From Zingiber officinale (lineage: Eukaryota > Streptophyta > Magnoliopsida > Zingiberales > Zingiberaceae): 64,000 nucleotides of DNA. The translations under genes were made by a program, and so were the position numbers. The stretch lies in contig NW_024589874.1 of assembly GCF_018446385.1 (NCBI RefSeq), forward strand, positions 310,001 to 374,000, written 5' to 3'. Below, piece after piece: positions 1-57,695 of this stretch. Position 1 is the first letter of the stretch; each line of letters starts with the position of its first letter. The notes beneath the pieces are model-generated. The model had not been told where the DNA came from. It made no database searches and was given only the letters and a program-made list of their open reading frames with translations.

Positions 1-3000
1 ATGTATGCTGTGAACGAAATCGGATATCTGTTTTGCCTAGGGCATAGTTAGCAAATATCAAAGTAACTCAGGACCGAGACACTAGACTGTCATAAAGCAT
101 ATATTAAAGTACCTTAAAGGGACTAGAGATTATATGCTAGTTTACAAGACAGATGATTTGTTCCCTGTGGGTTACACAGATTCAGACTTCCAATCAGATA
201 GGGACAATAGTAAGTCAACCTCGGGGTTTTGTGTTTGCTTTAGGAGGTGAAGTCATAACAATGGAGGGGTGTTAAGCATAGGTGTTTTTTCGAACTCCAC
301 TATGGAAGCTAAGTATATGACAACCTCTAAGGCAGTCATAGAAGCTGAATGGCTCAATAAATTCATGATGGACTTAGATGTGATTCCTGGTTTACCAAAA
401 ATTATTTGGTGTAGTAGCAAACTCGAACGAACCACGAGCCCATAAGGCAAGTAAACACAATAGAGCGCATGTACCACCCAATACGAGACATCGTATAACG
501 AGGAGAAGTTGTTGCCACCTAGATTGCATTAGATGATAACCTGAGAGATCTTTTCACTAAGGTCCTTAAGGCAAGAGCTTTTGATGGACATGTTGAAGGG
601 TTAGGAATCAGATGTATGGCAGGATATATGGCAGCATAGTCTTTTAGTATAAGTGGGAGATTGTTGGAATGTATACTGAAAGCCTAACTTTTTGTATAAA
701 CATTTATTTAGAAATAAAGAATCACATTGGTCAAATCTCTACATGCTAAGTGTAGTTGTTCAATTAATTTATATTGTAGATAACATGGTGTGTGGTGTCA
801 CACATAGAAGATCATGTTATCAGTTCCTTATAAATTATAAACAGTAGCTCACGATCGAAATGGAAAGGAACAAACCATCAGAACAGTCGTAGTGTAATTA
901 GATATTAGTTTATCTTGACTATATAATTACACTAGTACACTTAGAGTGTATTGAGTAGGACCATTGAGGCAGTTTTTTTATACTGACTAAATAAAAGAAC
1001 AAGATCTCGGTTATTATGGAAGTGTGTGCTCTTAATCCTAATATAATGACAAACACATATATTTAATATTTATTTCTTTAATTTATCAATGGGTGAGATT
1101 TAGTTCGATAAATCAATAGGCCCGATAAGTTGGGAAATGATATTACTTATAGTGTGTGTTGTTGATTATAGAAGGAAACTATGTCCTAGTAATCTAGGTT
1201 AATAATATTCCCAAGAGGAGCTCATAAGGATTGTCATGTTAACCCCTGCAGGTGGACTTAGTCTGACATGATGATAAGGTTGACTGGTACTACTCTTGGA
1301 CTGAGATATTAATTAAAATGAGTTGTCAGTAACTCAATTAATTAGTGGACATCCGACATCTTAAACACAGGGAGACTAACACACTCATAATAAGAAGGAG
1401 CCCAAAACGTAATTTGGGATTGGTGCGGTAGTTCAATAATAATTCTTTAGTGGTATGAATTATTATTGATGAAATTAAGTTGAGTCTTCGGGGCGAACAC
1501 GGGAAGCTTAATTTCATCGGGAGACCAAAACCAATTCCTCCTCTCGGTCCCTATCGTAGCCTCTTGTATATAGAGAATTATACCCACCTATACCCACCTT
1601 CTTACCCACTCTTTGGTGGTTGAATAAGCTAGCTTGGAGCCCAAGCAAGGGTCGGCCAAGACCCAAAGGTTGAGCCAAGTTAGGGGCCGGCCAATGCTTG
1701 GAGCCCAAGCATGGTGTGGCCGACCCTAAGAAAAATAAAAGGGTTTTTATTTTAAAATTTTCTTATGTGGATTCCATGGTTTTAAAAAGAGAGTTTAAAA
1801 TTTAAAGTTTTCCTTCTACAAAAGATTAAGAAAAGATTTGATATCTTTCCTTATTTGTAGATTGAGCGGAAGATTTTAATTTTGATAAAACTTTCCTTTT
1901 TTCTAACTATGTTCATGATTTAAAAAGAGAGTTTTAAAATTAAATATTTCCTTTATAGTCTTCTACAAAAGATTAAGAAAAAGATTAGATTTCTTCCCTT
2001 ATTTGTAGATTGAAAGGAGATTTTAATTTTAGAGATAACTTTCCTTTTTGGAAATCATCCACATGTTTTAAAAGAGAGATTTTAATTTAAATAAATTTCC
2101 TTTTATAACCATCCATGAAGGGATAAATTATTAGAGAAATTTTATTTTTTAAAAATTTTAGAAACAAATAAGGAATTTTTAATTTTGTTTAAAACTTGCC
2201 TATTTTGGTAGCTCTTGAGGTGGTCGGCCATATAGTTTAAGAAAATGAATGTGATTTTAAATCAAATTAAATTTTCCTTTTCATGGCAAAGTAATAAGGA
2301 AGTTTTTATTTATATTTTTCTTATTTACCAAGACCAAGGATTATAAAAGGGTGCCTTCATGGCTAAGACATCTATTCTATTTTCCTCCCTCTCTTCCTTG
2401 TTGGTGGCCGGCCCTAGAGATTCTTCTCCTTCTCTTCTCTTCTTCTTTAGTGGTCATTTTCATCCCTCTCTTGGAGCTCTTGTTGGTGGTCGGCTCAAGC
2501 TAGGAGAAGAAGGAGAGAAAGGAGGCTTTGCTCTTGCATCCCTTGGAGCTTGGTGGTGGTGGCCGAACCTCTACATCTCTTGGAGACTTGGTGGTGACCG
2601 AATCTAGCTTGGAGAAGAAGGAGCTTGGGTGGTTCTCATCTCGATAGATCGTTGCCCACACAATGTCCGAGATAAGAAGAGGAATACGGTAGAAGATCAA
2701 GAGGTCGTTGTATACAAAGAAAGGTATAACTAGTAATTATTTTCCGCATCATACTAGTTTTTCTTTGTATGAATTCTAAACACAAGAGGCATATGATTCT
2801 AGAGTTTCGGATTTGTTTCGAAGTTGTGTTTTTTTTTTGTTTTTCGAATTTGTGATTCGATTGTTCTTTTCGGTTAAACCTAATGTTATTTTAGGAAATT
2901 AAATATTGAATTTCTATTAAAGGCTTTGTTGAGGCAGTGGTGGATGATTCCATACCCAAGAAGGTCTAGTGTCTCGTCATGTTTGACCTGAAAGCCGATT

Positions 3001-3250
3001 TTAGAAATAAATATTTAATTAACTTTATAACATAGGTGACTTTGGATCAATAGTGTTAAGTTCTGTTTGCGATCCAAATCTAAACCATTAAGAACAGATA
3101 AGTTAAATTTGGAATCAATAATGTTAAGTTCTGTTTGTGATTCCTAATTTAATTTCTAAAGAACACAATACGTTGTTTAGGAAAGATTCGACACTTATAC
3201 AAATTTTTTGTATAGTGGATCCGGTACGATCTTCCTAGGACCAACCAACA
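1..3250 (+). mobile_element. Copia-A, 3' portion (end of pol plus 3' LTR)
   Basis: The first ~480 bases read as the C-terminal RNase H part of a Ty1/Copia polyprotein (a KYLKGTRDYML-like stretch, then YTDSDF and a STSGF motif). A purine-rich tract (about 649-661) follows, then a long LTR beginning TGTTGGAATG at 662 and ending CCAACCAACA at 3250. The 5' part lies outside the window. The coding part is clearly decayed, with several breaks. The right edge of this LTR abuts the point where homology to unit 2 starts, so the element hides the true left edge of the duplication. Confidence 0.8.
662..3250 (+). repeat. LTR of Copia-A (about 2.6 kb)
   Basis: The LTR has TGTTGG...CCAACA terminal inverted ends. 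Its first ~900 bases match, in reverse complement, the solo LTR at 60468-63016. A block at about 1730-2330 is very AT-rich and made of degenerate repeats of a TTTTAAAAGAGAG / CTTTCCTTATTTG type. 2.6 kb is long for a Copia LTR. Confidence 0.8.
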
Positions 3251-4095
3251 TACCAGTCTATTGAGCTCGGCAAGTCCTACCTTATCGACCGAGATTAACC
3301 AGTCGGTCGTATATAAACACTATTGCCCGATAGACCTTCCCTCGGTCAGTCGTAGGCCAAGGATCATGCGAGATTAAATGCCTCTGTGCTCGGTCGGTCT
3401 ATTGAGCTCGGCCGATCCTACCTTATCGACCGAGATTAACTAGTCAAGCGTATACAAATACTATTGCCCGGTAGACATTCCCTCGGTCGATCGTATGCTA
3501 AGGATCGTGCGAGACTAAATGCCTCTGTGCTCGACCGGTCTATTGAGCTTGGCTGGTCCTACCTTATCGACCGAGATTAACCAGTCGAGCGTATATAAGC
3601 CTTCTGGATAGCTTAAGGCTAACTATTTCTACGTTCGGTCGGTCTCTTCCACTTGGCTGGTCTTTGCCTGCCAAACTCATATGCTCGGCCGATCCATTAT
3701 GTTCGACCGATATCTGCCTGCCCAACGTGTAGCAACACTCTTACCAAGTCAAACCTTTTTTTCGTCTTCTTTATTGTCCCCTTTTTCTCTCCTGCAAAGG
3801 GCCCACTTATTATAACCCATATCAGTCGGTATAATTTTAATTATTATATTTAAATTATTGTACTTGCAATTCTCTGATTTATTAGTGAATTTCCCAAAGT
3901 AAATACTCAATGAGTGTGGGCCTTGGAGTAGGAATCGTCACAAGCTCCGAACCAAGTAAAACCAACTAACCAACTTGTGTCGTTGTTTTCTCTACTTGTT
4001 CTTATTCCGTTGTGTTTATCTCTGATTGTGTTTACGAAAAGTGAAAAAGCCATGAGTGCTATTCACCTCCCCCTCTAGCACATCTCGATCCTACA
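3251..4095 (+). repeat. LTR remnant with internal 142-bp tandem repeat, U1 copy
   Basis: The phrase TATTGAGCT recurs at 3258, 3400 and 3541, a period of 141-142 bp over about 2.6 copies. Downstream, a stretch with GAGTAGGAATCGTCAC and CCCCTCTAGCACATCTCGATCCTACA resembles the 3' end of a Copia-type LTR. No primer-binding site follows. The same sequence recurs at 34831-35672 in unit 2. Family assignment is inference from the LTR-end motifs. Confidence 0.6.
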
Positions 4096-4599
4096 ATGAC
4101 TGTCGATTTCACTCGAGTTTAGATTTATGTTCAAATTATTTTATTTTTTTTTGTTCTACTGCCGCTGTTAATTATTTTCTTGCCTTCATTGAATAAATGA
4201 GATTTTGTAATAATAGTATAACTATTATCTTGTGTATATTAGTATATTCATATGTTCATGTATACATATATGTTATTTTGTAATAATAGTATAGCTGTTA
4301 GAGCTCTAACCTAGGGGGAGCTAATTTTTGAGCAATTAGACTAGGAGTTGTTCCAATCATATTTTCATGTTTATTAGTTTCAAAATATGATTTCAAAAAT
4401 GATAGTATTTTAATCTCATAAAGAATTTTGTTTTACTTCTTATCAAGCTGAAATGGACTTAGCTTAAGATCTACCATAGACAACATGTTCCTATAGATCT
4501 AGGTAGCTAGTATCTCATAAAATATCAATGGTATAGCTTGCTTGTGTTTGTAAAACATAGAATGGTGTAAAATGTTTAGGATTACTACCTCTAAATTCT
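4096..4599. other. AT-rich intergenic, nothing recognised
   Basis: This stretch is AT-rich and also present in unit 2 (35673-36170). It contains a short local duplication of TTTTGTAATAATAGTATA. No coding potential, RNA gene or transposon end is recognised. Confidence 0.5.
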
Positions 4600-5345
4600 A
4601 CGATGACTGAGGACTGATCATAAATGTGAAGATGGCAGTGATGGTCATCAAAGTTGTGAAGATGTGAAGTTAGGGTTCTGGTGAGTTAGAAAATCCCAAG
4701 GAATTGTCAGATCTGCATCACTATTCTTCCTCTTCATTCTCTATCACGCGCCTCACCGATGGTGAAGATGATAGCCAAACCTTCAATGGATGCAAAAATG
4801 AAGATGGGCGAGGTAGGAAAATCCCTAGACCTCAATGAATGGGAAGCATCAAGCTCCGGTGGCTAGCGATCATGGTGGAATAGTAATCTCCTCGCCCCTG
4901 TAGAAAATTGATGATCCTTTTCTCGTTACTGTAGCTTCTCATTTGAATCCCATCATATCTGAATGGATGGTCCACAATGTTTCAGATCTTGATCAACTAC
5001 TAGATCAGTTTAGATCTAGATCAAAGGCTCCAAATCTAGGTCAATGGTCATGATCTACTCTCTCTTTGATTTGGATGGACTAGATCATGATGGATGGCCT
5101 AGATTCCTTCAGATCTTGGATGAACAATCTAGATCAATAAAAATTAGTCATTCTCCCTAATTTCCTATAAAATCAATTCCATAAATGAGCACAAAATTCC
5201 ACAAAATAATTTAAATCATATCAAAACTCTAAATGAATCCAAACACATGAAATATAATATAAATGCGAATTTAAACACATAATCAACTCAAAAAATATGA
5301 TTATATGATCTTAAAAAATATGATAAAATGATAGTTATAAGGCAA
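4600..5345. repeat. Gypsy LTR fragment related to solo LTR-G, U1 copy
   Basis: It shares an irregular series with the solo LTR at 41303-42917: TACTGTAGCTTCT, repeated 'gatggaccagatc' and 'gatgaac' phrases, then an AT-rich tail ending in ATAAAATGATAGTTAT (compare ATAAAATCATGGTTATCA there). It is a decayed copy without the 5' part. Unit 2 has the same fragment at about 36170-36910. Confidence 0.5.
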
Positions 5346-5782
5346 CCACCACAAATTCTATCCCAACAATTATTTTTATTATCTAGTATCTCACTTCTAC
5401 TACTTCTGCTTATATTTTGAATTTTAATCCATCTATGCTTTATTATTGTAGCAAAAGGTGGAATCCGCCACCCCAGTGACCCCACACGGTCGGCCCCACC
5501 ACTATCTATGAAGAGGTAAATTGGGAAGCTGTAGTTGGCTAGTGCGAGGGAGGACTTTTTCCTCGGCTTTGTCGAACCATCTGTGCTTTATTATGCTTTG
5601 ACTTGAAGTTGACATATTACTTGATATGTCTAGATTTAATTACATTTATTTATTCTTGACTTTCATTTCGATATATGATTTGAGTTTGCTTGTTTAACTA
5701 TCCAATTATGCTCTAACTTAAGTTTATTATTAACCTCCTTATTTCTTTACTATATGTCATATTGCTTTTTTCTTGTCTTGCC
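5346..5782. other. Unassigned intergenic sequence, U1
   Basis: This is low-GC sequence conserved in unit 2 (36911-37344). No gene or transposon end is recognised. Confidence 0.4.
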
Positions 5783-10293: not shown

Positions 10294-11071
10294 CTAATTG
10301 TTGTTGTCCGTCCATTGTTGAGCTTGGAGCCGGTCAACGAGGCGTTTGTCCACCTGAAAAGCCTTGGCGAGCACATCATCGGAAATGGGCGGCGTCGATC
10401 CGAACACAGCCTTGGCAATGGTAATGACGCCCGGGTTTTGACTGCTGAGACCGGCGAGCGCAACGGCATTGTATTTGCCCGTGTTGAGTTGGAAGTGGAT
10501 GAGGCCTTGGGGGAACACAAAGACGTCACCCTTCTTCAAATTCTTAGTGAAGAGGCGGTTGGTTTGGCCGATGTTGGACGTCACAAAGCCGACGTAGAGC
10601 TCTCCTTCTAGCACGACGAGGATCTCAGTGGCGCGAGGGTGGGTGTGAGGAGGGTTGAGCCCATTAGGCGCGAAGTCTATGCGAGCCAAGGAGATGCCGA
10701 GGGTGTTCAGCCCGGGGATCTTATTCACGTTGACGGCGGTGACGTTGGAGCGGACATTGTTGACGGTGTTGCCGGGCTTGTCGAGGCCAGAAGTGTAGAA
10801 GTCGTCGGCTGTGACGTCGTTCATGTTCTTGCATACGGCGCCGTTGACGAACACTGCAAAAAGGTAATTAAGGTCCGATTGGTAAACATATGCATGCATG
10901 CGTACTGGAAAATGGAAATGAAAGCGCTTAGCTTAATTAATTGTAAAGCTATGCACCTTTGGAGCTATCATCTGCGACGCAGAAGTCCTGAAGGGGACTA
11001 GGATCTGAAGCCAATACAGCATGAGCGAAAGCCAAGGCGAGGAGTGCGACGAGGAGCAGTTTCATAGCCAT
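10294..11071 (-). CDS. Germin-like protein GLP1 (two exons, intact)
   Basis: A secreted cupin of the germin-like family (apoplastic; some members have superoxide dismutase or other activity, but the activity here is unknown). Exon 1 is 10957-11071 and exon 2 is 10294-10853. The 103-bp intron (10854-10956) has GT-AG ends and phase 1. The product is 224 aa, normal for the family. The N-terminus ([13 protein letters not shown]...) is a signal peptide of about 21 aa, followed by [13 protein letters not shown] (germin box 1). The paired cysteine is in AVCKNM. Box 2 is [11 protein letters not shown], with two His and one Glu metal ligands. Box 3 is [13 protein letters not shown] with the third His. 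SNVT is an N-glycosylation site. A minus-strand AATAAA lies at 10242-10247. It is divergently paired with GLP2. The subfamily looks like grass GLP8/GER4 from memory. Confidence 0.95.
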
Positions 11072-11763: not shown

Positions 11764-12558
11764 ATGGCGGCTAAAATTCTTATGGTTATTGCTGCTCTCC
11801 TTGCTTTGCAATTGGCTACCTCTCGTGTAGTATGGGCATCTGATCCTAGTCCACTTCAAGACTTTTGCGTCGCCGATAATAGCTCCAAAGGTTTATATAC
11901 ATAACTTCTTCTCCCTTAGCTTAATTAGCTTGGTTGATTTAATTTAGAGTGGCTTGTCTAATTGCATCTTATATATTCATTGGTTCCTTGATTTACAGTG
12001 TTTGTCAATGGATTCGTTTGCAAGAGCATGGATGACGTGAAAGCCGAAGACTTCTTCACCTATGGCCTCGACAAGCCCGGCAACACCATCAACAAGCTAG
12101 GCTCCAACGTCCGTGCAATCAATGTGAATACAATTCTTGGGCTCAACACGCTCGGCATCTCCATGGCTCGCATCGACTTCGCCCCTCGCGGACTCAACCC
12201 ACCCCACACTCACCCTCGCGCCACTGAGATCCTCACCGTGCTAGAAGGAGAGCTCTATGTTGGCTTTGTGACATCCAACATCGGCCAAACCAACCGCCTT
12301 TTCACCAAGATTCTGAAGAAGGGCGATGTGTTTGTGTTCCCTCAAGGCCTTGTCCACTTCCAATTCAACCGTGGTCATACAAGAGCTATTGCAATCGCTA
12401 CTCTAAGTAGCCAAAACCCCGGTACCATAACCGTTGCAAATGCAGTTTTTGGCTCAAAACCCTCCATATCCGATGAAATTCTCGCTAAGGCTTTCCAAGT
12501 GGATCGGAAGATTATTGACCGACTCCAAGCTCAATTCTGGATGGATAACAACAATTAG
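11764..12558 (+). CDS. Germin-like protein GLP2 (two exons, intact)
   Basis: A secreted cupin paralogous to GLP1. Exon 1 is 11764-11890 and exon 2 is 11999-12558. The 108-bp intron has GTTTAT...TTACAG ends and phase 1. The product is 228 aa. The signal peptide begins [13 protein letters not shown] and ends before [14 protein letters not shown]. The box 2 ligands in [11 protein letters not shown] and the box 3 His in [13 protein letters not shown] are present. The glycosylation site of GLP1 is lost here (SNVR). The poly(A) signal AATAAA is at 12644-12649. It is transcribed away from GLP1 from the common promoter. Its U2 counterpart GLP4 differs at 13 residues. Confidence 0.95.
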
Positions 12559-16734: not shown

Positions 16735-18979
16735 TGTTGGAACTCCAAGGTTGTTTTGATGTCATCAACAAGTTAAGTTAGGTCCTGTGGTATTTTAACC
16801 TTGTGTTTAATTGTGCAGGAGCTTAGGACCATAGGGAGTCGAGCAAAAGATGCAGCTAGCGAGAAGGACGACACAGAAGAGACCCGACAGGCTCGGTGCG
16901 TCTGAGGTACGAGGTGCTGCGGAAGAGTACACAGGCGGACGAGAAGGAGGCATGCAACATTTTAGAGGGACGAGAAGCCGGAGTAGAAGGTTGCTCGAGA
17001 AGGCCAAAATTGGGTTCGGGGTGAGCTTTATTTCGGTTGGCTGAAATCATCCAAGCGAGCGGAATCGGAGCGAAAGATTGGGACCGAGGTGAGTAGCACT
17101 GGAGCAGAGGGACCGGACCAAAAGTCAACTTTGTTGACTATTGTGGTTCGGACACCCGGAACTATTTCGGGCGCCCGGACCAATCCGAGCTGCTCGAAAC
17201 CCCTTTCGGGTGCCCGGACCTGAAATTTTATCCTGATCACGGCCAAACACGATCTATGCGAGAAGGGATAAATTTTTATTCCCTCCCAGATGCCTGGAAC
17301 CCTTCCAGGCGCCCCGACCAAGGTTATAAATATAGCCTTAGTCCAAGAAGCTCAATCAACACAAGCAATTAGCATTTCGAACACTTGTACGCTTTCTTTA
17401 GAGTTTTGCTTCTATTTTCTGTGCGTCATTGTTACGATTCCGCAAGTGCACGGATTCGTCGTCAGTAATATATAAGATTATTGAACCACAGGGACTGTTG
17501 ATTAAGCACTAGAGATGTCGCAAAGGAAGTTATCTAGACGGTTGAAAGTTGGCTTTGGCGCTTGCAAACTAACGAGAGTGATTGAAGAGAGAAAGAGAAG
17601 GATGAGAGAATCGATCTTGGAGGGAATTGAGCTTTGGGAAATGAATTCTATGAATTCGGTTTCATTATGGTGGAACCTGATGCATCATGTTCTATCTTTT
17701 ACTCATTGTCAATCAACATACCTTCGTCAGAAGTTAAAGCTACTATCTTTAAGTACTAATCAGAGAAGATCCCTGTGAAATCCTGTTACAGTTAATCCCT
17801 GTCAGTAGGGCGCCTCGGTAGATCACAAGAATACAAATCTAATCGGTATCATTAGGGATAGAGATAGGGGTTTGGTTTGGTCTCTGACTTCCTTGTAGAG
17901 AAGTTGCCTCTCCTTTCAAGGGAATATCCTAGACGTCCGTGAACGGGTTACCCCTAACATTAGGGCCCCTCGGGTATACGATCAAAGATCCTCTCTTTAC
18001 GAAATTAGCAATTCCTACACAATCACTTAACATGACAAGGCAACAAGTCTCATGCACATCAAATAGAAACAAAGCAAGAGAAATCATCCAACAAGTAAAA
18101 GCACGAACATGACTCTTACATCAAACCCTATCCAAAACTACTCCCTACATCCATATAAAAGGAGATCTACTCCATTGCGAGAGACCAAAACATAAAGTAA
18201 AGAACACTTACAACCCTTGATGTGAGAAGAAGGGGAAGAAGAGATTCTTGCCGAGGTTTCCGATGTCTTGGTGATGCCTCCTTACTTTGGAGATGGACGG
18301 AACGTCTAGAGATGGCGGCGGATGAAGCTCTCGAGTTTCCCCCGAAGGGGAGAACCCTTTCCCAAGGAGAGGGGGCGAAATCCCAAACCAAATATCCTCA
18401 CTACAACAAAAACCCTCATAGACATTGGTTTTTCACCGATGTTTATTACATTTTCGACCGATGTCTATGAAGGCGATGTAAAAGGTCTGCCATTTTAGAC
18501 ACCGGGTTAAAACTGGTGTAGTATCACTTAACGACACCGGTTTTCAAATCCGTTATTAACCGATGTAGTATCACTTAACGATACTGTTTCATCAACGACT
18601 TAAAACTGATGTAATAATATATGGAAATAACACCATTTTTGGTAGCGGTATAGGACCGATGTAATATTAGTTAATGACACTGGTTTTGCAGCGGTGGAAA
18701 ACCGATGTAATATCAGTATTTTTTACCAACACAAATTTGATTTCCGAAACAGTGAAAAATCGACTGTAACCAAGAAAATACACAAATATTCACAAATTAC
18801 ACAAATATTCTTCATTCAACAGTATCCATAAAATACATAAATATTGTTCTTACAACAGTATCCATAAAATACACAAACATTCTTTTTACATCAAAATCTA
18901 ATAGATATCAAAATCAAAGTAGAACATTCTTTTAACAACACATTAAGGTAGAACATCGTGAGTCAAAAATCAAGCTGAG

Positions 18980-19400
18980 GCTACATTAAATTATGAGAAT
19001 CAGAATCTGTTCAACTTGCTATACTGCTCCATTCTTCTTGCGCCTTTCATTTCCCTAATCTCACCACTTTTCACCTTCAAATGCCTAGTTTTCTGAGTTA
19101 AAACATCCACTGTTCTAATCTGTCAAACAAAAGTATCATTTGGTCTACTTAACTAAGCAAAGAACAAAAACAGAAGAATTATACATGCTACAGAAGTCCT
19201 AGAATATCACCATCAGAAAGAAATTGACATGGGACAATATACGCAATTTACATTCCATGCAAATGCATGCATCATCCAAAGTTTTCAAAAATCAAATACT
19301 TTTCCTACTCAAATGTAATCTAGCATGCATTCAGCCCACTCGAACCGCACTTCATCAATTTCAACTCTGGAGTGCTTGAGATTTGTAAACTGTAAAAACA
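18980..19400 (-). pseudogene. Unidentified exon-like blocks inside the CACTA element
   Basis: On the minus strand, a block ending near 19319 follows a TACAG acceptor-like site and reads FTNLKHSRVEIDEVRFEWAE. A second block (about 19122-19005) follows TTTGACAG and reads IRTVDVLTQKTRHLKVKSG, then EIREMKGARRMEQY. I do not recognise the gene. These may be a third captured fragment or the C-terminal end of an element gene. Confidence 0.35.
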
Positions 19401-19706
19401 CATAAATAATATATTAGTAAACCAAGACCAAAAATCATAGTTGAAAAAGTAGTAAGAGTACCAGGTAACAAGATGACTAATTTGAATGCTTAAAAAGAGA
19501 CACATTCATCATTTATCTCAACCACATCATATAGTAATAGATCTATCATTCCTGGGAACTTAATAAATTCCAAACCAGAAATTATTGCAACAAAGTTTTC
19601 TCATAGTTGCAATTTAATTAATCAGTACTTGATGGAGGTTCAATCTTTTCATATTCTGAATATCATTCAAATGTCCTGGTGTAGCAACAATGATTGAACA
19701 CTGCGT

Positions 19707-19878
19707 TCAAAAATTAATTAGTACTTTACAGCCTTCAAAAATTCCCACTGCGTTCTTCACAGACTCAACATCAATGTCTATTAGCTTTCCTGTGCTTGAT
19801 GCAATGATTGAACACCTCTTTTCTCGGGCATTAGGAACAAAGGTGTTTTCTTTTTCTTCAGAAGAAAACAATGCAATA
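19707..19878 (-). pseudogene. PnsB1/NDF1-like last exon, captured by CACTA
   Basis: After a poly-pyrimidine tract and CAG acceptor, the minus strand reads IALFSSEEKENTFVPNAREK, then CSIIASSTGKLIDIDVESVK, NAVGIFEG and a stop. This matches, from memory, the C-terminus of the chloroplast NDH subcomplex B subunit 1 (PnsB1/NDF1: ...LFSSEEK...GKL.DID...VKNAM.VFEG). It belongs with the 5' exons at 22707-23563, but the CFA-like exons lie between them. It is a fragment and is not expected to be functional. Confidence 0.7.
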
Positions 19879-20875
19879 CTGAAAAAAAAAACATCTCAAC
19901 TATCACAAACAAAAGAATGATATGTTTGTTATTAACCACTTACGAATCAAATAACGTTGAGCTAGAATATTGAGGGTGATGGGAATTTAGATAAAGACTT
20001 TTTTTTTACTGTACAAGGTTTATTAGTAAAGAGATTATTTTGCTGATCTCTTTCATCCTATATCTTTTCCAATCCATCATGGTATCTTACTGGACATAAA
20101 CTTCAAACGATGCCTAACAAAATATCAAAAATAGTACCAGAGCCAAAATTCTCAAACACATCAATCCTCTTCTTCCTTTGGTTTATCTTATGGCAAACAT
20201 TTTCGTATATTTCCTTTACGACACCCTTTTCTTCCCTGGTACTTTCTATACCAAACACATCAACCCTCCCATGGAGCCTCTATATAAAACAATGCCTATG
20301 CGCTATAACTCATGATATATGTCATGCAAACTTTATATGCATTCAGTATCATCAGTTTATGGAGGTATTAAGGAAAGATTAAAGTGATTGTTGTCTAATT
20401 CATAACCAATTCTGCCTTGATCCTTTCCAGCTTGATGTATTACCATATTAAAATTCCTAATTGCTTTCGCATGATGTGATTTTTCTCTATTCTTGTCCAT
20501 TGTTTTTATGTAACTACTAAAGTACTGCTTGTGTTAACTATGAACTCTGAACAATGCTAAACAAATCATCAAGAATATTATTGTTTCCACAAGTTCTCAC
20601 AAAATTGTGTATAATTGATCTAAATAGTTAGCAAATGCAATTTTGTGATTATTTTTTCAGAAAGATATATAAAGGAAGCCCTTGAGCCTCCATCCCCCAA
20701 TAACTTATAATTGTTGTAAGACATTGACATTGTTGTAATACAATTTCAAAGTGTGTTGTATCCCAAAGGTTCAACTAACTGGGGCTCTGACAATATTAAT
20801 CTTAACTCACCAAGAATTCATGATGTTAAACTAATCATGTCTGGCCAGTTGCTAAGACAAAAATAAAGCACTGAC

Positions 20876-22248
20876 CTGTAACACATTTAACCAATATGTA
20901 AGGCACACACCGTGTTGTGTTGTCCCAAGAAAGTTCCAAGCACTCCATGCCGCTGGATTTTGTGGCATGAAACTTTTGTCATGATGAAGATAAATGTCAC
21001 TGTGCATTGAGAAATTGAAGACTCCAATCAGTCGAGAGGTTGAGAAAACTAAAATTTTGCAAGGACGTGTATGTGATTGAGTTTGAGCAAGAAGAAATGT
21101 GAAGTTCCCCTCAAGTTTGCACTTAGCTAACATTTTTATCCGAGAAGACCATATATCTCCAAATTCTGAGCAAAAATTTGTGTGCAAGATGATTGATCAC
21201 TAAATTCTAAGGAGATATGAATGCTAGTCTTATTTCTCAGTAATAAATTAAAGATGGAATTAAATAGAATTCTCGATGTCAAAAGGACAAGAAGTTGTAT
21301 TGCAATATATGAGTCTTATTTTGTGATTTAAAGTTCCTTTAGTTCCTTAAAAAAATTTTTGAATCAGTATTGCTTATTGGGCTATTTTTGGAAGAAATAA
21401 CTGGAGGTGAGAAAAGGTATGCCGTTTGTTCGAAAACATATCACCGAACACTGTGAGAAAAATTGAGATCTCAGGGCACCATTTGAAAAAAAAAATCACC
21501 TAGATTCGAAGCTATCAGTTGTCCTAGAACTAAGATCCTAGACATTCAGCTAATAGTTATCACATGAACACCCAACTCTTAAAATTCATGGGCTTCTATG
21601 ATTTGAATGGCTTTCTTGCACTTCTCAAAAAAAAAAAAATATGTGTATATATATCAGCATACCTATATACATATTGAAATGCACCAAGTATCCTTGCTTC
21701 CTCAGATGTTTCTTGCTCTCCCAATAACTTTAAAGCATCCGACGCATGAGTGCTAATTATGCATCCATCATATATATCTTTGGAACAATCTTCTCCTACC
21801 ACACAACATCCTGCCAAAAAGGCATTTTCAGGAACTAACTAAAATGTGCACCAGAAATTCAACTTGCATAATGAGTTATTGTAGTTTCCCAAAAAGAAAA
21901 AGAGAAAAAAAAACATGATCTGCTCATTGTGTTCTAATAGTACATTAAGATTTTGTTCCAAGGCAATGTTAAACCTTTAAGTTTATTGATATAAATATCA
22001 ACGATCATTGATTAGGTAACTGAAAGTTGTTTACCTGCATCAGTACTAAAAACTGATTCCATAGCACACCTTGTTCTAATAGTACATGATCTGCTCTCCA
22101 ATTCTTCTCTTATCTACTTATAATAAGCATCAACTTTGAGTCAAAAGTTTACAAAGAATGAGTTCAAACACTCGGGGAGAGGCAATACCTTGTCGACGTA
22201 GCACTATGAACGTGACTTGACAGTGAGCCACTGTGGACGGTCGAATAG
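20876..22248 (-). pseudogene. FAD-oxidoreductase/cyclopropane-fatty-acid-synthase-like gene, four captured exons
   Basis: Four exons with GT-AG introns on the minus strand are 22189-22248 (LFDRPQWLTVK...), 22035-22113 (IREELESRSCTIRTRCAMES), 21663-21810 (DIYDGCIISTHASDALKLLG, ending QYVY) and 20876-20999 (DIYLHHDKSFMPQNPAAWSA, then WNFLGTT...LTYWLNVLQ). In plants this sequence belongs to the N-terminal FAD-binding amine-oxidase-like half of a large protein whose C-terminal half is a cyclopropane-fatty-acyl-phospholipid synthase. Intron phases agree between exons, so it was captured as DNA, not as a spliced copy. Exon 1 has an in-frame stop (SRS, stop, CYVDK). The start, the dinucleotide-binding N-terminus and the methyltransferase half are absent. 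Confidence 0.8.
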
Positions 22249-22706
22249 CTGAAATGTGAATGGAAGCATTAGAGAGATCAGAATAAGGGAGAAGGGAAAT
22301 GGAGAAACAAGGATGCTAAGTTGAATAAGCTCTAGCAAACAACAAAACTTTTGACAACACAGAAGATACATCACTAAGCATGTAACATGCAACTTATACA
22401 ATTACAAAGCACCAAAAATAGTCTGTTCAAATAAAGTGCTAAATAAGAAGAATGAAAATGTGGCAATGCATTACTTCATAATTAACAACGGCAAGAGTCA
22501 CAAAAGTATATTGACCCAAAGAAGGTGGGTCACTGTCTCATAATTAACTTATAACTCATCATGAATTATTTAACTTTGTCTCCCTAACCATTCCTCCATT
22601 TCATCGTACCTGAAACACCACAAGTATCACAAATGAACAATCCACAACAACAAAATATTTTTTTGTATGTTTGTTTAGAATTGAGGCATCAATGGTGGTT
22701 GCCTCA

Positions 22707-23563
22707 CATGTGGTATCCACGTTCGGAGAGGTTCATGGTTGGAGAAGTGAAGGTCTCTGTGAGCAGCAGGCCTGTGCCTGCTGCATTGACATTAGGGTAC
22801 ACGTAGCTTACTTTGTCCCGAGCAGATGTCATGAACAGGAATGCCGCATGGCCAAGTCCAGCAAGCTTGGTCGACAAGATCAAATCATAGTATCGATTCT
22901 GTCAACAAATTCGTAAAAAGCTAGTGAGATTTCTGCTATCATTCCATTTCAAGGATCATGTGTTTTTCCCCCTTTCATTTGTACCCTTAACAGACCGATC
23001 ATGTTGACATACTTCGCTGGCTCCAGGAAATCTTTGTCGGGGTCATACACATTCGCCCACCTCACATTCTTGTTCACCTCGTACACCTACTTCCCCCTGG
23101 GCAAGGCAACGACATCGATCTGCACGCCGGGGTACCTATCCTTGATGAGTTGGATCACGGGGAAGAAGAGGAGGTTCTCGTAGACTCTGCCAGAGATGAC
23201 GCAACAGCAGAGGCGCACGTCGCCGCGGACCTTGGAGGCGAGCAAGGCGAGCTCGACGTTGGAGCCCATGGGAAACTTGAGGAAGTCGTAGGGGTTGTCG
23301 GGAGGGCGAGGGTCCTCCTCCTGCTTTCCGTCGGCGAAGAGGGATCCATACTCGATGTCGGGGTCCTCTCCGCAGTCGAAGGGGTCGAGCCAAGGGTTCT
23401 TCTTCTTCTTCGCGGCGGTGGAGACGAATCGGAGCCATCCTCGCTGAGGATGGTACGCCGAGGAAGAGGATAGGGCATGGGTGTGGAGTGGGGAAGGGAA
23501 TGCGTGGGAGATGGGGAAGGAAAAGCTACAGGAGTGCGAAGAAGGTTTCCTCTTCTCACCCAA
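22707..23563 (-). pseudogene. PnsB1/NDF1-like 5' exons, captured by CACTA
   Basis: Exon 1 (22985-23563, minus) reads a serine-rich transit-peptide-like N-terminus, then NPWLDPFDCGEDPDIEYGSL, EEDPRPPDNPYDFLKFPMGS, CCCVISGRVYENLLFFPVIQ and LIKDRYPGVQIDVVALPRGK. It continues after an in-frame TAG (23087-23089) as VYEVNKNVRWANVYDPDKDF. Exon 2 (22707-22898) reads NRYYDLILSTKLAGLGHAAF and YVYPNVNAAGTGLLLTETF. This is the glycosyltransferase-9-like chloroplast NDH subunit PnsB1 (NDF1), recognised from memory. No ATG is seen at the expected start; the frame opens at TTG. The intron between them has GT and AG ends. Being partial and stopped, it is a pseudogene. Confidence 0.75.
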
Positions 23564-24033
23564 AGGGAGGAGTTGGAAGAGATGCGGTGTGGTTGGATGG
23601 AGAAGGAAGGGGCGTCGATGTAGGAAGGGGAAGAGGGAGATGAGGTTGAGAGAGATGGTCAGGTTTAGGTTTAGGTTTAGGCTGAGAGAGATGGTCGGAG
23701 GAAGGGGCGCGATATAGGTTTAGGTTTGGAGGGAACTTTGTGAAGTGTTGCAAATTTTGGCTAGTGGGAAAATTAAAATATTTTATTTTGGTTCATTAAC
23801 ACCGGATTTTAAAAACCGCTGTTAAAATCGGTGTCTATTAACGAAAAAAAGGTGCTCATAGACATCGCATAAAAAATCGATGTCTATGAGCGAAAATCTG
23901 CGCTCATAGACACCGATTTTTGGAAAAATTGGTGTGAAATACTGAAAGACATCGGTTTTTTGCTTAAAACCGTTATTGTTCCACCGATGTCTATGAGGAT
24001 TTTTCTTGTAGTGCCTCCAAGAATAGGGTTCTT

Positions 24034-42917: not shown

Positions 42918-45900
42918 GTGGGCCGACCAGCGGTGACTCCAACCGAGGCCGCAAGACGTACGTGCGACGTTTGGAAATCCACGCGGTAGGCTGTAGCCAA
43001 GAAAGGGCGAGCGGACCAGAGATCCGCTTTGGTCCCAGAGATTTAGAGGGAATCTAAGTACCGCATGATGACACCCTCATCATCCGAGCGGTAATTGCTA
43101 ACTACACAATCCACCGCATATTTATTGATACATGGAGTTCAGTCAACATCATCTTCGAGAAGGCGTTCGACCAACTCCAGATAGACCGGACCGAGCTGCT
43201 GCCGATGACGACTCCATTGTACGGGTTTACCGGTAATGAGGTACAGCCGATCGGCCAGATAAAGTTGGCCATATCCCTCGGAGAAGAGCCGCTCGGAAGA
43301 ACAAGGACGACTACCTTCATCGTTGTAGACGCCCCGTCCGCTTACAACGACATATTGGGTTGACCAGCCCTTAATGAGTTCCGAGCAGTTGTCTCAACAT
43401 TTTGCCAGAAAATTAAATTCCCGGTTGAAGATCGGGTTAGAGAAGTCAAAGGAAATCAACTGGCTGCTCGGCGTTGCTAGGTCGAGACGGTAAAGGCGGA
43501 GGCTAAGTCCGCCCGAAAGGTCCCTTAGATCGAGGTAAACACTATAATCGAGAAACCCCCTACCTTAGTTTATGAAGAAAAGGAGGAAGTGCAGATATAT
43601 CCTGGCCGACCAGAGGCGATGACTTTCATAGCATCTGATCTGGGAGCCGACCAGAAAGCCTAGCTAATCAGCTACCTCCAGCAGAACCATGATGTCTTCG
43701 CGTGGTCAACACACGACCTGCCAGACATCTCCCCTAGCGTCGCGCAGCATGAGCTTCATGTCCGATCAGATGCCCAGCTAGTAAAGCAAAGAAAGAGAGA
43801 TTTCAGCGCCGAGCAGAATCAGATTATCCGGGCGGAGGTCGAGAAGCTGTTAGAAGCCGGCCACATACGGGAGGTCCAGTTCCCGAGCTGGCTAGCGAAC
43901 GTAGTACTCGTCTCCAAGCCGAACAACAAGTGGAGGGTCTGCATCGACTTTCGGGACCTGAACAAAGCGTGCCTGAAGGACTTCTATCCCCTACTCAGAA
44001 TCAATCAGATGGTGGACTCGACCGCTGGGTGCGAGCTGATATGCATGCTGGATGCATACCAAGGATACCATCAAGTGCCGCTCACTCGGGAAGATCAGGA
44101 GAAGGTGAGCTTCATCACGGCGGATGACACCTATTGCTACAATGTAATGTCATTCGACTTAAAGAACGCCGGGGTCACGCACCAACGACTCATGAACAAA
44201 GTCTTCCGGAAGAAGATTGGACGGAATATGGAGGTATACGTCGATGACATACTTATTAAATCCCTCTGAGCTACTGACCTCTATGTAGACATCAAAGAAA
44301 CCTGCTGAACACTCCGAGTGTACGGGATCAAGGTGAACTCGGGCAAGTGTCTGTTCGGCACAAAGAGCGAGAAATTTTTGGGCTATATAGTTACCGAGCG
44401 GGGTATCGAGGCGAACCCTAGCAAAGTAAAAGCACTGCAAGATATGCCACCTCCAAGGAATTTGAAGGAAGTTCAGCGCCTCACCGGTCGAATAACGGCC
44501 TTATCCCGATTCATCTCTAAGACGGTCGACCGGAGTCTACCTTTCTTCAAGATCTTGCGCTGATCCATCAAGTTCCTGTGGGACGAGGAGTGCGATCGAG
44601 CGTTCCAAGAGCTCAAAGCCTATCTCAATTCACTACCGGTACTAGCCAAGATAGTCGTCGGAGAGTCTCTCAGGATCTATCTGTCTTCGACCGAGCATGC
44701 AGTCGGCTCGGCCCTTGTAAGGCCGAATGACGAGGAGCAGCCGGTGTATTTCTTGAGCCATATTTTAAAAGATGTCAAATCCCGCTATACTGGTCTCGAG
44801 AAACTTGCTTTCGCACTGGTACTCGCCGCTAGGAGGGTTCGCCCGTACTTCCTCGCGCACACGATCATTGTAATGACCAACAACCCCCTGGGGGGAGTCC
44901 TCCTCAATCCAGAAGTGTCAGGGCGGCTAATCAAGTGGACGACGGAGCTCAGCGAATTCAATATCCAGTATTAGCTCCGAACGACCATTAAGGCGTAGCC
45001 CTTGGGTTACTGAGGTGTAGACTCCCGAACTAGAGGTCACTTTGAAGATATACATGGGCGGATCATCCACTCGGCAGAGAAGTGGAGTTGGGGTGCTGCT
45101 AATCTCCCCCCAAGAAGAACGAATGCATTTGTCCGCTCGATTGGAGTACCGGGCAACCAACAACGAAGCCAAGTACGCGACACTCATAGTCGGCCTGCAA
45201 GCCACCCGGCACATCGGAGCTATCAAGGTTTTGATTCACTCAGATTCCCAGCTGGCCACACAACAACTTACTGGGGCATTCAAAATCAACAACTTGAGGC
45301 TCAGACTTTACGCCGAGGCCTTTGAGAAATTGAAGGCTGACTTTCGGGAGGTGGGTATACAGAACATACCCCGGGCGGAAAACCAAACTGCGGATGAGCT
45401 GGCAAAACTGGCCAGCTCCATATCGTCGGTCGTCGTCCAGCAGCCGATCGAGCAGGTCTCCCTTGTGGCACACATCGACCGAATGGAGGGGCTCACCTTC
45501 CCGAGTGACTGGAGGACTTCGCTGATAGAGTTTTTGAAATCCGGAGCGACGCCTCCCAACCGGGAAGAGGCCCATCGATTGAGAAGAAGGGCGAGTTGGT
45601 TCACGTTGATAAGAGATCAGCTATACAAGAAAGCTTTCTCCCGACCGCTGCTCAAGTGAGTTGGGCCGGAGGGCAATAACTACATACTGCAAGAAGTGCA
45701 CCAAGGGTCATGTGGAGGGCATCCGAGCGGCCGCTCACTAGCACAGAAGATTATGTTGTCAGGATACTTTTGGCCGACTCTCTAGGAAGATGCCGCTTGG
45801 ACAGTGGCAACCTGTCTATCCTGCCAAAGGTACCATAACTCTTCTCACCGGCCTACGGAAGAGATGAAGTCGTCCATGGTGTCCTGCTCGTTCGACCAGT

Positions 45901-46658
45901 GGGGAATGGACAACGTAGGACCGTTCCCAATGGCGATCGGACAATGGAAATTCCTGCTTGTGGCAGTCAACTACTTCTCCAAGTGGGTCGAGGCCGAGCC
46001 GTTGGCAAGGATAACCGAGCAGATGATCAAAAAGTTCATTTGGCAGCACATCATTTGTCGGTTCGGCATCCCGCGTCGGCTCGTCTCGAACAACGGAAGA
46101 CAGTTCATTGGCCAGCAACTCAGAGAATGGTGCAAAGGGTACGACATCCATCTGGCCTTCACCTTCGTAGCATATCCCCAGAGCAACGGACAAGCGGAAG
46201 TCTCCAATCGGGAGATCTTACAGATCCTTCGAGTTCGGCTTAACCATATAGGAGGCAGCTGGGTGGACGAGCTCCCGGGAGTCCTATGGGCAATTCCCAC
46301 GACTCCAAAGGAAGGAACAGGAGTAACCCCGTTCCACTTGGAGTATGGAGGAGAAGCAGTCGTCCTGGTCGAGGTGGGGGTGGAGTTTGATCGGGTGCAG
46401 TGATACGATGAGGACAATGCCGAGCGGAGACAGCCGGAGTTGGACTTGGTGGACGAAGCACGCGTCAGGGCTGTCGTATGACTGACATCCTACCGACAAA
46501 GGATGCATCAGAACTATAATCGATGAGTGATACCTCAATCCTTTTTGGTAGGCGATCTCGTATGGAAGAAGGTGAAGCCGGTCAACGACGTCACTAAGCT
46601 GGAGGCTCCCTGGGCCGGACCTTTCAAAGTCGTGGAGAAGCTCTGCTTAGGCACTTAT

Positions 46659-55433: not shown

Positions 55434-56207
55434 CTAATTGTTGTTGTCCGTCCATTGTTGAGCTTGGAGCCGGTCAACGAGGCGTTTGTCCACCTGAAAA
55501 GCCTTGGCGAGCACATCATCGGAAATGGGCGGCGTCGATCCGAACACAGCCTTGGCAATGGTAATGACGCCCGGGTTTTGACTGCTGAGACCGGCGAGCG
55601 CAACGGCATTGTATTTGCCCGTGTTGAGTTGGAAGTGGATGAGGCCTTGGGGGAACACAAAGACGTCACCCTTCTTCAAATTCTTAGTGAAGAGGCGGTT
55701 GGTTTGGCCGATGTTGGACGTCACAAAGCCGACGTAGAGCTCTCCTTCTAGCACGACGAGGATCTCAGTGGCGCGAGGGTGGGTGTGAGGAGGGTTGAGC
55801 CCATTAGGCGCGAAGTCTATGCGAGCCAAGGAGATGCCGAGGGTGTTCAGCCCGGGGATCTTATTCACGTTGACGGCGGTGACGTTGGAGCGGACATTGT
55901 TGACGGTGTTGCCGGGCTTGTCGAGGCCAGAAGTGTAGAAGTCGTCGGCTGTGACGTCGTTCATGTTCTTGCATACGGCGCCGTTGACGAACACTGCGAA
56001 AAGGTAAGGTCCGATTGGTAAACATATGCATGCATGCGTACTGGAAAATGGAAATGAAAGCGCTTAGCTTAATTAATTGTAAAGCTATGCACCTTTGGAG
56101 CTATCATCTGCGACGCAGAAGTCCTGAAGGGGACTAGGATCTGAAGCCAATACAGCATGAGCGAAAGCCAAGGCGAGGAGTGCGACGAGGAGCAGTTTCA
56201 TAGCCAT
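55434..56207 (-). CDS. Germin-like protein GLP3 (two exons, intact; U2 copy of GLP1)
   Basis: Exon 1 is 56093-56207 and exon 2 is 55434-55993, with a 99-bp phase-1 GT-AG intron. The product is 224 aa with signal peptide, [18 protein letters not shown] (metal ligands His, His, Glu) and [13 protein letters not shown] (His). By eye the 675 coding bases are identical to GLP1, though the introns, the flanks and the partner gene differ. A minus-strand AATAAA is at 55362-55367. As a secreted cupin, its activity cannot be told from the sequence. Confidence 0.95.
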
Positions 56208-56894: not shown

Positions 56895-57695
56895 ATGACG
56901 GCTAAAATTCTTCTGGTCATTGCTGCTCTCTTTGCTTTGCAATTGGCTACCTCTCGTGTAGTATGGGCATCTGATCCTAGTCCACTTCAAGACTTTTGCG
57001 TCGCCGATAACAGCTCCAAAGGTTTATAAACATAACTTCTTCTCCCTTAGCTTAGCTTAGCTTAGCTTGGTTGATTTAATTTAGAGTGGCTTGTCTAATT
57101 ACATCTTATATATTCATTGGTTCCTTGATTTACAGTGTTTGTCAATGGATTCGTTTGCAAGAGCATGGATGACGTGAAAGCCGAAGACTTCTTCACCTAT
57201 GGCCTCGACAAGCCCGGCAACACCATAAACAAGCTAGGCTCCAACGTCCGTGCAGTCAATGTGAATACAATTCCTGGGCTCAACACGCTCGGCATCTCCA
57301 TGGCTCGCATCGACTTCGCCCCTCGAGGACTCAACCCACCCCACACTCACCCTCGCGCCACTGAGATCCTCACCGTGCTAGAAGGAGAGCTCTATGTTGG
57401 CTTTGTGACATCCAACATCGGCCAAACCAATCGCCTTTTCACCAAGATTCTGAAGAAGGGCGATGTGTTTGCGTTCCCTCAAGGCCTTGTCCACTTCCAA
57501 TTCAACCATGGCCATACAAGAGCTATTGCAATCGTTGCTCTAAGTAGCCAAAACCCCGGTACCATAACCGTTGCAAATGCAGTTTTTGGCTCAAAACCCT
57601 CCATATCCGGCGAAGTTCTCGCTAAGGCTTTCCAAGTGGATCAGAAGATTGTTGACCGACTCCAAGCTCAATTCTGGATGGATAACAACAATTAG
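56895..57695 (+). CDS. Germin-like protein GLP4 (two exons, intact; U2 copy of GLP2)
   Basis: Exon 1 is 56895-57021 and exon 2 is 57136-57695, with a 114-bp phase-1 intron (GTTTAT...TTACAG). The product is 228 aa. The signal peptide starts [13 protein letters not shown], and box 1 QDFCVAD and box 2 [11 protein letters not shown] are intact. Box 3 reads [13 protein letters not shown], a Val-to-Ala change beside a conserved strand, with the His ligand kept. Against GLP2 there are 20 base differences, 13 changing the protein. The intron contains a short TTAGC/TAGCT repeat not in GLP2. Poly(A) signal AATAAA is at 57781-57786. Confidence 0.95.

Follow-up and report, generated by a model that had tools for sequence, protein, structure and literature searches.

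How did exons of two unrelated host genes come to share one transposon, and in what order did they arrive? The question is raised by an element at positions 18399-24013 of a 64,000-nucleotide stretch of the ginger (Zingiber officinale) genome (contig NW_024589874.1, here C93:310001-374000; hereafter the window). A first interpretation made from the letters alone (the sequence-only reading) had described a CACTA transposon with a CCT target duplication, holding minus-strand exons of PnsB1, a gene for a chloroplast NDH subunit, and of a gene resembling cyclopropane-fatty-acid synthase (CFA-like). The analysis presented here leaves us highly confident that this is a non-autonomous, gene-carrying CACTA transposon (Pack-CACTA), in which a PnsB1 capture was followed by replacement of its middle with CFA-like sequence. 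Much more tentatively, we propose that its family may record a stepwise exchange of gene pieces, from PnsB1 (type B) to the CFA-like gene (type A), a U-box ARM gene (type C) and an Arm-like gene (type D), with the middle replaced by break repair and the right arm kept.

The assembly comprises 3,090,333,446 bases in 211 contigs, and its genes tend to have a counterpart on a partner chromosome (C1 with C2, C3 with C4, C11 with C12, and likewise for others). This pairing fits a haplotype-resolved ginger assembly; the published genome report describes a haplotype-resolved sequence of 11 chromosome pairs and 3.1 Gb (PMC8342452), and a further paper of this kind on ginger is PMC8342499.

A multi-copy CACTA element

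The element is bounded by CACTA terminal inverted repeats of 31 bp with 3 mismatches (28/32 terminal bases match). The left repeat (18399-18429, plus strand) has CACTACAACAAAAACCCTCATAGACATTGG at position 18399; the inverted repeat on the right (23983-24013, minus strand) closes the element at 24013. Immediately outside them lie the two copies of the target-site duplication CCT, at 18396-18398 and 24014-24016. The left subterminal region (18399-18720, right edge approximate) contains short repeats, among them exact copies of ACCGATG at element positions 37, 59, 161, 257 and 303; in a count without a shuffle control, this motif was present five times at the left end, twice at the right (both strands) and nowhere in the rest of the element. 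The right arm, which also has subterminal repeats, occupies 23521-24013. When up to two mismatches were allowed, the genome contained 6,835 occurrences of the end motif (3,437 + 3,398), compared with 0 + 0 for a reversed control pattern, so that these ends belong to a large family.

A query in which 150 bases from each flank were joined by a single CCT was used to look for empty sites, with 40 places scored of 4,043 candidates. Two of these were the window's own flanks, and the other 38 cross the joint at 91-94% identity, all ending about 17 bases beyond it. The allelic site is not among these 38, which are empty sites of related repeats. The repeat that hosts the element (window 18249-18398 and 24017-24033) has copies on C93, at C17:45.3-45.6 Mb and at C18:42.9-43.0 Mb, which hints that C93 goes with C17/C18.

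A genome search with the element itself, in which 40 of 7,059 candidates were scored, returned 69 rows, and all counts of relatives refer to these scored candidates. Full-length or nearly full-length relatives (96%) lie on C12 and C1, interrupted ones on C5 and C18. A second copy of the window's type, L003, has its own target duplication, ATA. The element is thus present in several copies and has moved as a unit in the past. No transposase match was obtained in 29 of its stop-to-stop frames searched against Pfam or in 6 searched against NCBIfam, the remaining frames being mostly shorter. Taken together, the CACTA ends, the duplication, the gene fragments with parents elsewhere (see below), the lack of a transposase match in these frames and the multiple copies mark the element as a Pack-CACTA.

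Pieces of PnsB1 and of a CFA-like gene

PnsB1 sequence is present in two segments, both on the minus strand. The 5' segment (22578-23520; element 4180-5122) is 95% identical to the parent and contains exon 1 without its first codons (22985-23518; PDB chain 7wff_a, E 2.1e-55), exon 2 (22707-22898; PDB 9grx_1, E 3.2e-31) and the first nine codons of exon 3 (22582-22608), which is then cut by filler. Exon 1 is broken by an in-frame TAG at 23087-23089, and its frame has no methionine upstream of FPMGS. The 3' segment (19723-20813; element 1325-2415) matches C3:151326879-151327974 and C4:131097287-131098379 at 97% in the genome search; of this segment, element 2136-2415 was also aligned directly to parent sequence. 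It contains the C-terminal exon, called exon 6 (19728-19880; 7wff_a residues 407-456, E 1.6e-12). The sequence-only reading had identified the gene correctly; it had overlooked the C-terminal exon and the stop in exon 1.

Parent-like PnsB1 loci form a pair, C3:151324958 and C4:131095364, with their own N-terminus (seen in L012) and with exon 3 present; further frames that we take, by eye, to be exons 4 and 5 are also there. The pair lacks the CACTA right arm, the match stopping at element base 5122, and no element ends were matched in the roughly 3.7 kb (C3) and 3.3 kb (C4) read. The C3 locus was read to about C3:151327158, and the match to element 1325-2415 further on is that of the genome search. 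Over the part of exon 1 that was compared, 4 changes separate the two haplotypes, with a ratio of amino-acid changing to silent change (pN/pS) of 0.10. A search of the genome with exon 1 gave 73 rows. Thirty loci were fetched, of which two are the parents; each of the remaining 28 continues into the right arm and reaches at least base 5612, in some cases with internal deletions.

The CFA-like segment (20812-22528, minus strand; element 2414-4130) is 97.3% identical to C1:37868015-37869734 over 1,721 aligned columns. Within it we recognize the exon pieces DIYLHHDK...WLNVLQ (20876-20998) and CCVVGEDC...AFQYVY (21665-21808), and RPQWLTVKSRS (22207-22239), presumably part of an exon, as in plant CFA-synthase-like proteins; all are on the minus strand. 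The captured exons gave no Pfam match and no convincing PDB match, and their identity follows from the C1 locus (L081), where domain matches place NAD-binding/amine-oxidase exons with CMAS exons downstream. Parent-like loci lie at about C1:37868k and C2:43367k, and no element ends were matched in the 10 kb read at the C1 locus. CFA-synthase-like sequences form clusters on paired chromosomes, at C1:37.87-38.37, C2:43.37-43.67, C11:10.7-10.9 and C12:12.9-13.3 Mb.

Splice-site dinucleotides are intact at several exon edges, and every exon piece identified in the window copy is on the minus strand. In these respects, and in its description of the ends and the duplication, the sequence-only reading was accurate. 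It had also suggested looking for intact parents and for further copies; parent-like loci and further copies both exist. It had named as contrary evidence parental loci that already carry these ends, of which none was matched in the stretches read.

One capture nested in another

The two genes do not lie side by side: PnsB1 sequence encloses the CFA-like piece, with the last PnsB1 exon to the left of it and exons 1 and 2 and the start of exon 3 to the right. The sequence-only reading had missed this nesting, as well as the replacement and the other subfamilies described below. Comparison with other copies sheds light on this arrangement. Two copies, L008 (which matches element 1-2415 and 4180-4376) and L025, represent what we call type B: in each of them the captured sequence aligns in one piece to parental PnsB1 at 95-96%. 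L019, L020, L034 and L038 were placed in the same type because their match to the element stops at 4180-4181 and they have no CFA piece; L020 also shows PnsB1 exon 3. In type A, which includes the window copy, element 2414-4130 is CFA sequence at the point where type B continues PnsB1. Because PnsB1 is continuous in type B, the CFA piece would be the later capture, replacing a part of the earlier one. The replaced stretch comprises most of exon 3 and exons 4 and 5, leaving a gap of about 1.1 kb.

The joints differ from one another. At the left joint there is a 2-bp overlap (AA) common to both parents, and at the CFA/PnsB1 joint on the right there is a filler of 49 bp (22529-22577). The filler was compared with the 200 bases on either side, the controls being 3,000 stretches taken from the window and as many shuffles. 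Its longest match, an 11-mer also present in these flanking bases, has a P of about 0.02. For the filler of type C, described below, the longest match has P values of 0.01 and 0.05, and the coverage by 8-mers has P values of 0.002 and 0.005.

These features suggest the following course of events. An ancestral element would have captured almost all of PnsB1, giving type B. Later, a break inside the element most probably underwent error-prone repair, in which copying from a CFA gene began at the 2-bp match on one side and filler closed the joint on the other, so that the PnsB1 middle (most of exon 3 and exons 4 and 5) was replaced by the 1.7-kb CFA-like piece to give type A. The element would have been moved in trans, by transposase made elsewhere, with the captured exons as passengers that presumably decay as methylated transposon DNA.

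Probable further exchange in types C and D

Two more types appear to carry the exchange further. In type C, 12 of 14 loci have a CFA part (about 3622-3995) followed by PnsB1 from 4185, with an 18-bp filler between them in the 3 loci where this was read. To the left of the CFA part lies a piece of a U-box-type ARM gene on the plus strand (3 loci translated; Pfam ARM_PUB, E 1.5e-15 with a joined query). L016 and L022 were assigned to type C because this piece lies 10-12 kb away. The likely parents of the ARM piece are C12:9490784, with an open frame of 767 aa, and C11:7828084, with one of 766 aa; the identity is 96%. The strand of the ARM piece is opposite to that of PnsB1 and CFA, and a 323-aa frame is found in 11 type C rows, in 5 of them without stops.

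In type D (3 loci read, L035-L037), PnsB1 exon 1 extends to element base 4735 and is followed by a fourth gene. There are 26 places where a row for this gene adjoins a row for PnsB1 exon 1, and L036 (C17:93920624-93923899) also has part of the ARM piece. The likely parent is at C73:197279 (95%, open frame 404 aa). The fourth gene gave no PDB match; its first part gave no Pfam match, and its longer part gave a sub-threshold match to Arm_4 (E 0.0015; score 18.3 bits, cut-off 27). We take it to be Arm-like, possibly of the BEACH/SPIRRIG type. PnsB1 exon 1 is in frame with the fourth gene, and a stop-free frame of exactly 262 aa occurs in 7 of 38 rows. The fourth gene and the ARM piece also occur together, with no adjoining PnsB1 exon 1 row, at C21:58933845, C4:108896873, C7:86476636, C11:132354723 and C8:47633951, and these five places are possibly a further derivative.

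Types B and A have the left arm in common, A and C the CFA part, and C and D the ARM piece, and the simplest arrangement is the chain B-A-C-D, which would run from B to D. The break in PnsB1 lies about 5 bp apart in A and C. In a comparison over 368 positions of CFA sequence, types A and C agree in their majority base at every listed position where the first two parent loci differ; since that base also occurs in a parent locus, substitutions cannot decide whether the CFA capture was common to A and C or separate. L010 and L033 were considered as additional joints and rejected; because the absent parts lie 10-14 kb away, they appear to be later insertions in C- and A-type copies.

Decay of the captured exons

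Exon 1 of PnsB1 was compared in the 28 non-parental copies with an expectation for no selection that keeps the same mutation classes. There were 225 distinct changes, of which 144 change an amino acid, 73 are silent and 8 are stops; the expected numbers are 138.9 ± 4.6, 75.9 ± 4.5 and 10.2 ± 2.2. Silent changes numbered 43 in private mode (expected 42.9 ± 4.5) and 124 in all mode, fewer than the expected 143.2 ± 8.6. Transitions per 1000 cells were 69 at CG, 65 at CHG, 8 at CHH and 7 at A/T sites. Exon 1 fits neutral decay once the CG/CHG mutation bias is allowed for. This spectrum, together with the neutral counts, is the pattern of long-methylated, unselected transposon DNA and suggests that the DNA of the element is methylated. 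As the exons lie on one strand, a chimeric transcript from the window element is possible on sequence grounds.

Competing explanations

Several observations weigh against the account given above. Relatives of the element were counted only among the 40 scored candidates of 7,059. A genome-wide search for Transposase_21 gave 6,544 candidates, of which 150 were scored, and no transposase-bearing element among these was tied to the ends; the six C1 transposase rows within the stretch spanned by 100 listed C1 ends are all at least about 70 kb from a listed end, as judged by eye from a partial list. More than one CFA locus is a candidate parent: C1:37868k matches the piece as a whole most closely (97.3%), and other CFA loci are slightly closer to the window over a 370-bp part (99.2 vs 98.9%). 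The type A filler shows an ordinary coverage by 8-mers (P 0.19 and 0.14). Measured against the parent, the types have raw pN/pS values of 0.58-0.80 for exon 1, and within types the values are 0.39-0.61, which before control for mutation bias looks like weak constraint, and the fused type D frame has a pN/pS of 0.43 (3 copies, without mutation control). Finally, the joints fit nearly as well with another route to the same element, in which two type B copies flanking a CFA-like gene lost their inner ends and fused. This is the published Pack-CACTA model of tandem insertion (Catoni et al. 2019, as given in PMC8903248 and PMC13317346), and PMC8903248 reports for Pack-PIF cluster 18 of maize that a later capture lies within an earlier one, just as the window type is old on the outside and new within. 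Against such a fusion, the left and right PnsB1 parts do not overlap and leave the gap of about 1.1 kb, and a 2-bp match at one joint with filler at the other is what is expected of one-sided copying; each of these points comes from one event and carries little weight. On balance we lean slightly toward break repair for the CFA replacement and regard fusion of neighbouring copies as a lesser, though substantial, contender.

The low raw pN/pS values and the 262-aa frame of type D might also suggest that the PnsB1 frame is kept by selection as part of a working chimeric gene. With mutation classes kept, however, exon 1 fits neutrality in the 28 copies, and the suggestion of purifying selection made by the raw ratios is unsupported. 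In addition, the U-box piece has a pN/pS of 1.11 in 12 type C copies, one stop being present in 5 of the 12, and the window copy has both the stop and the missing methionine noted above. We consider a selected gene very improbable. Even less credible is a local chimeric pseudogene whose CACTA-like ends arose by chance, for which no supporting evidence was found and against which stand the near full-length copies on other chromosomes, the separate duplication of L003 and the empty sites. The preferred reading thus continues to be that of a mobile element whose PnsB1 cargo was later replaced in part.

Other features of the window

Reading frames of about 190-200 aa with Cupin_1 matches lie in both orientations at 10294-10899, 11998-12558 and 55434-55994; the frame at 57135-57695 is of the same size, the Cupin_1 scan having covered the other three. 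Perhaps the Cupin_1 frames are a local cluster of germin-like genes. Matches to reverse-transcriptase-like/RNase H and integrase core domains at 45042-46403 are the remains of a retrotransposon. An Rfam scan of the window gave no match.

Discussion

Pack-CACTA or Pack-TYPE elements are known in Arabidopsis, rice and maize, and maize has Pack-CACTA elements with several gene pieces, according to PMC8903248. The sequence-only reading had called two genes in one element less usual, a view at odds with these elements and with Tgm-Express1 of soybean, which has five. Like the elements described in PMC8903248, the window element has CACTA ends, contains coding-gene pieces from several loci with no transposase found among them, and has its later capture further in. 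Within the literature searched, it differs in that its second capture replaced part of the first instead of being added to it, and its family in that parent-like loci were found for four captured genes. Tgm-Express1 (PMC1947982) is a 5.7-kb CACTA element whose five unrelated host gene fragments likewise keep exons and introns, but it occupies a gene's intron, and splicing has been shown to join its fragments into chimeric transcripts, whereas the window element is known from sequence. CACTA elements of Chenopodium also contain host gene fragments; these are upstream of a transposase-type domain (TAD) in the same element (PMC8978399), in contrast to the window element with no transposase match. 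The main text of the ginger genome report, in its available part, contains no mention of "CACTA" or "gene capture" (PMC8342452), and a literature search for PnsB1 with a CACTA transposon found no paper. Pack-CACTA elements with several gene pieces being known already, what is added here is a capture history in multiple steps, at the level of single bases and with parent-like loci.

What is known of the pickup of host genes by cut-and-paste transposons comes mostly from the final products. Here a single haplotype-resolved genome preserves both earlier and later stages of one family, along with the parent-like loci, so that the joints, the order of events and the stretches that were replaced can be followed at base resolution. 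The family also has dozens of close copies of one exon of a chloroplast NDH gene in decaying, probably methylated DNA, and small-RNA cross-talk between them and the real PnsB1 gene would be straightforward to test. If the stepwise-exchange reading is true, capture in such elements would proceed largely by internal replacement and not by fusion of neighbours.

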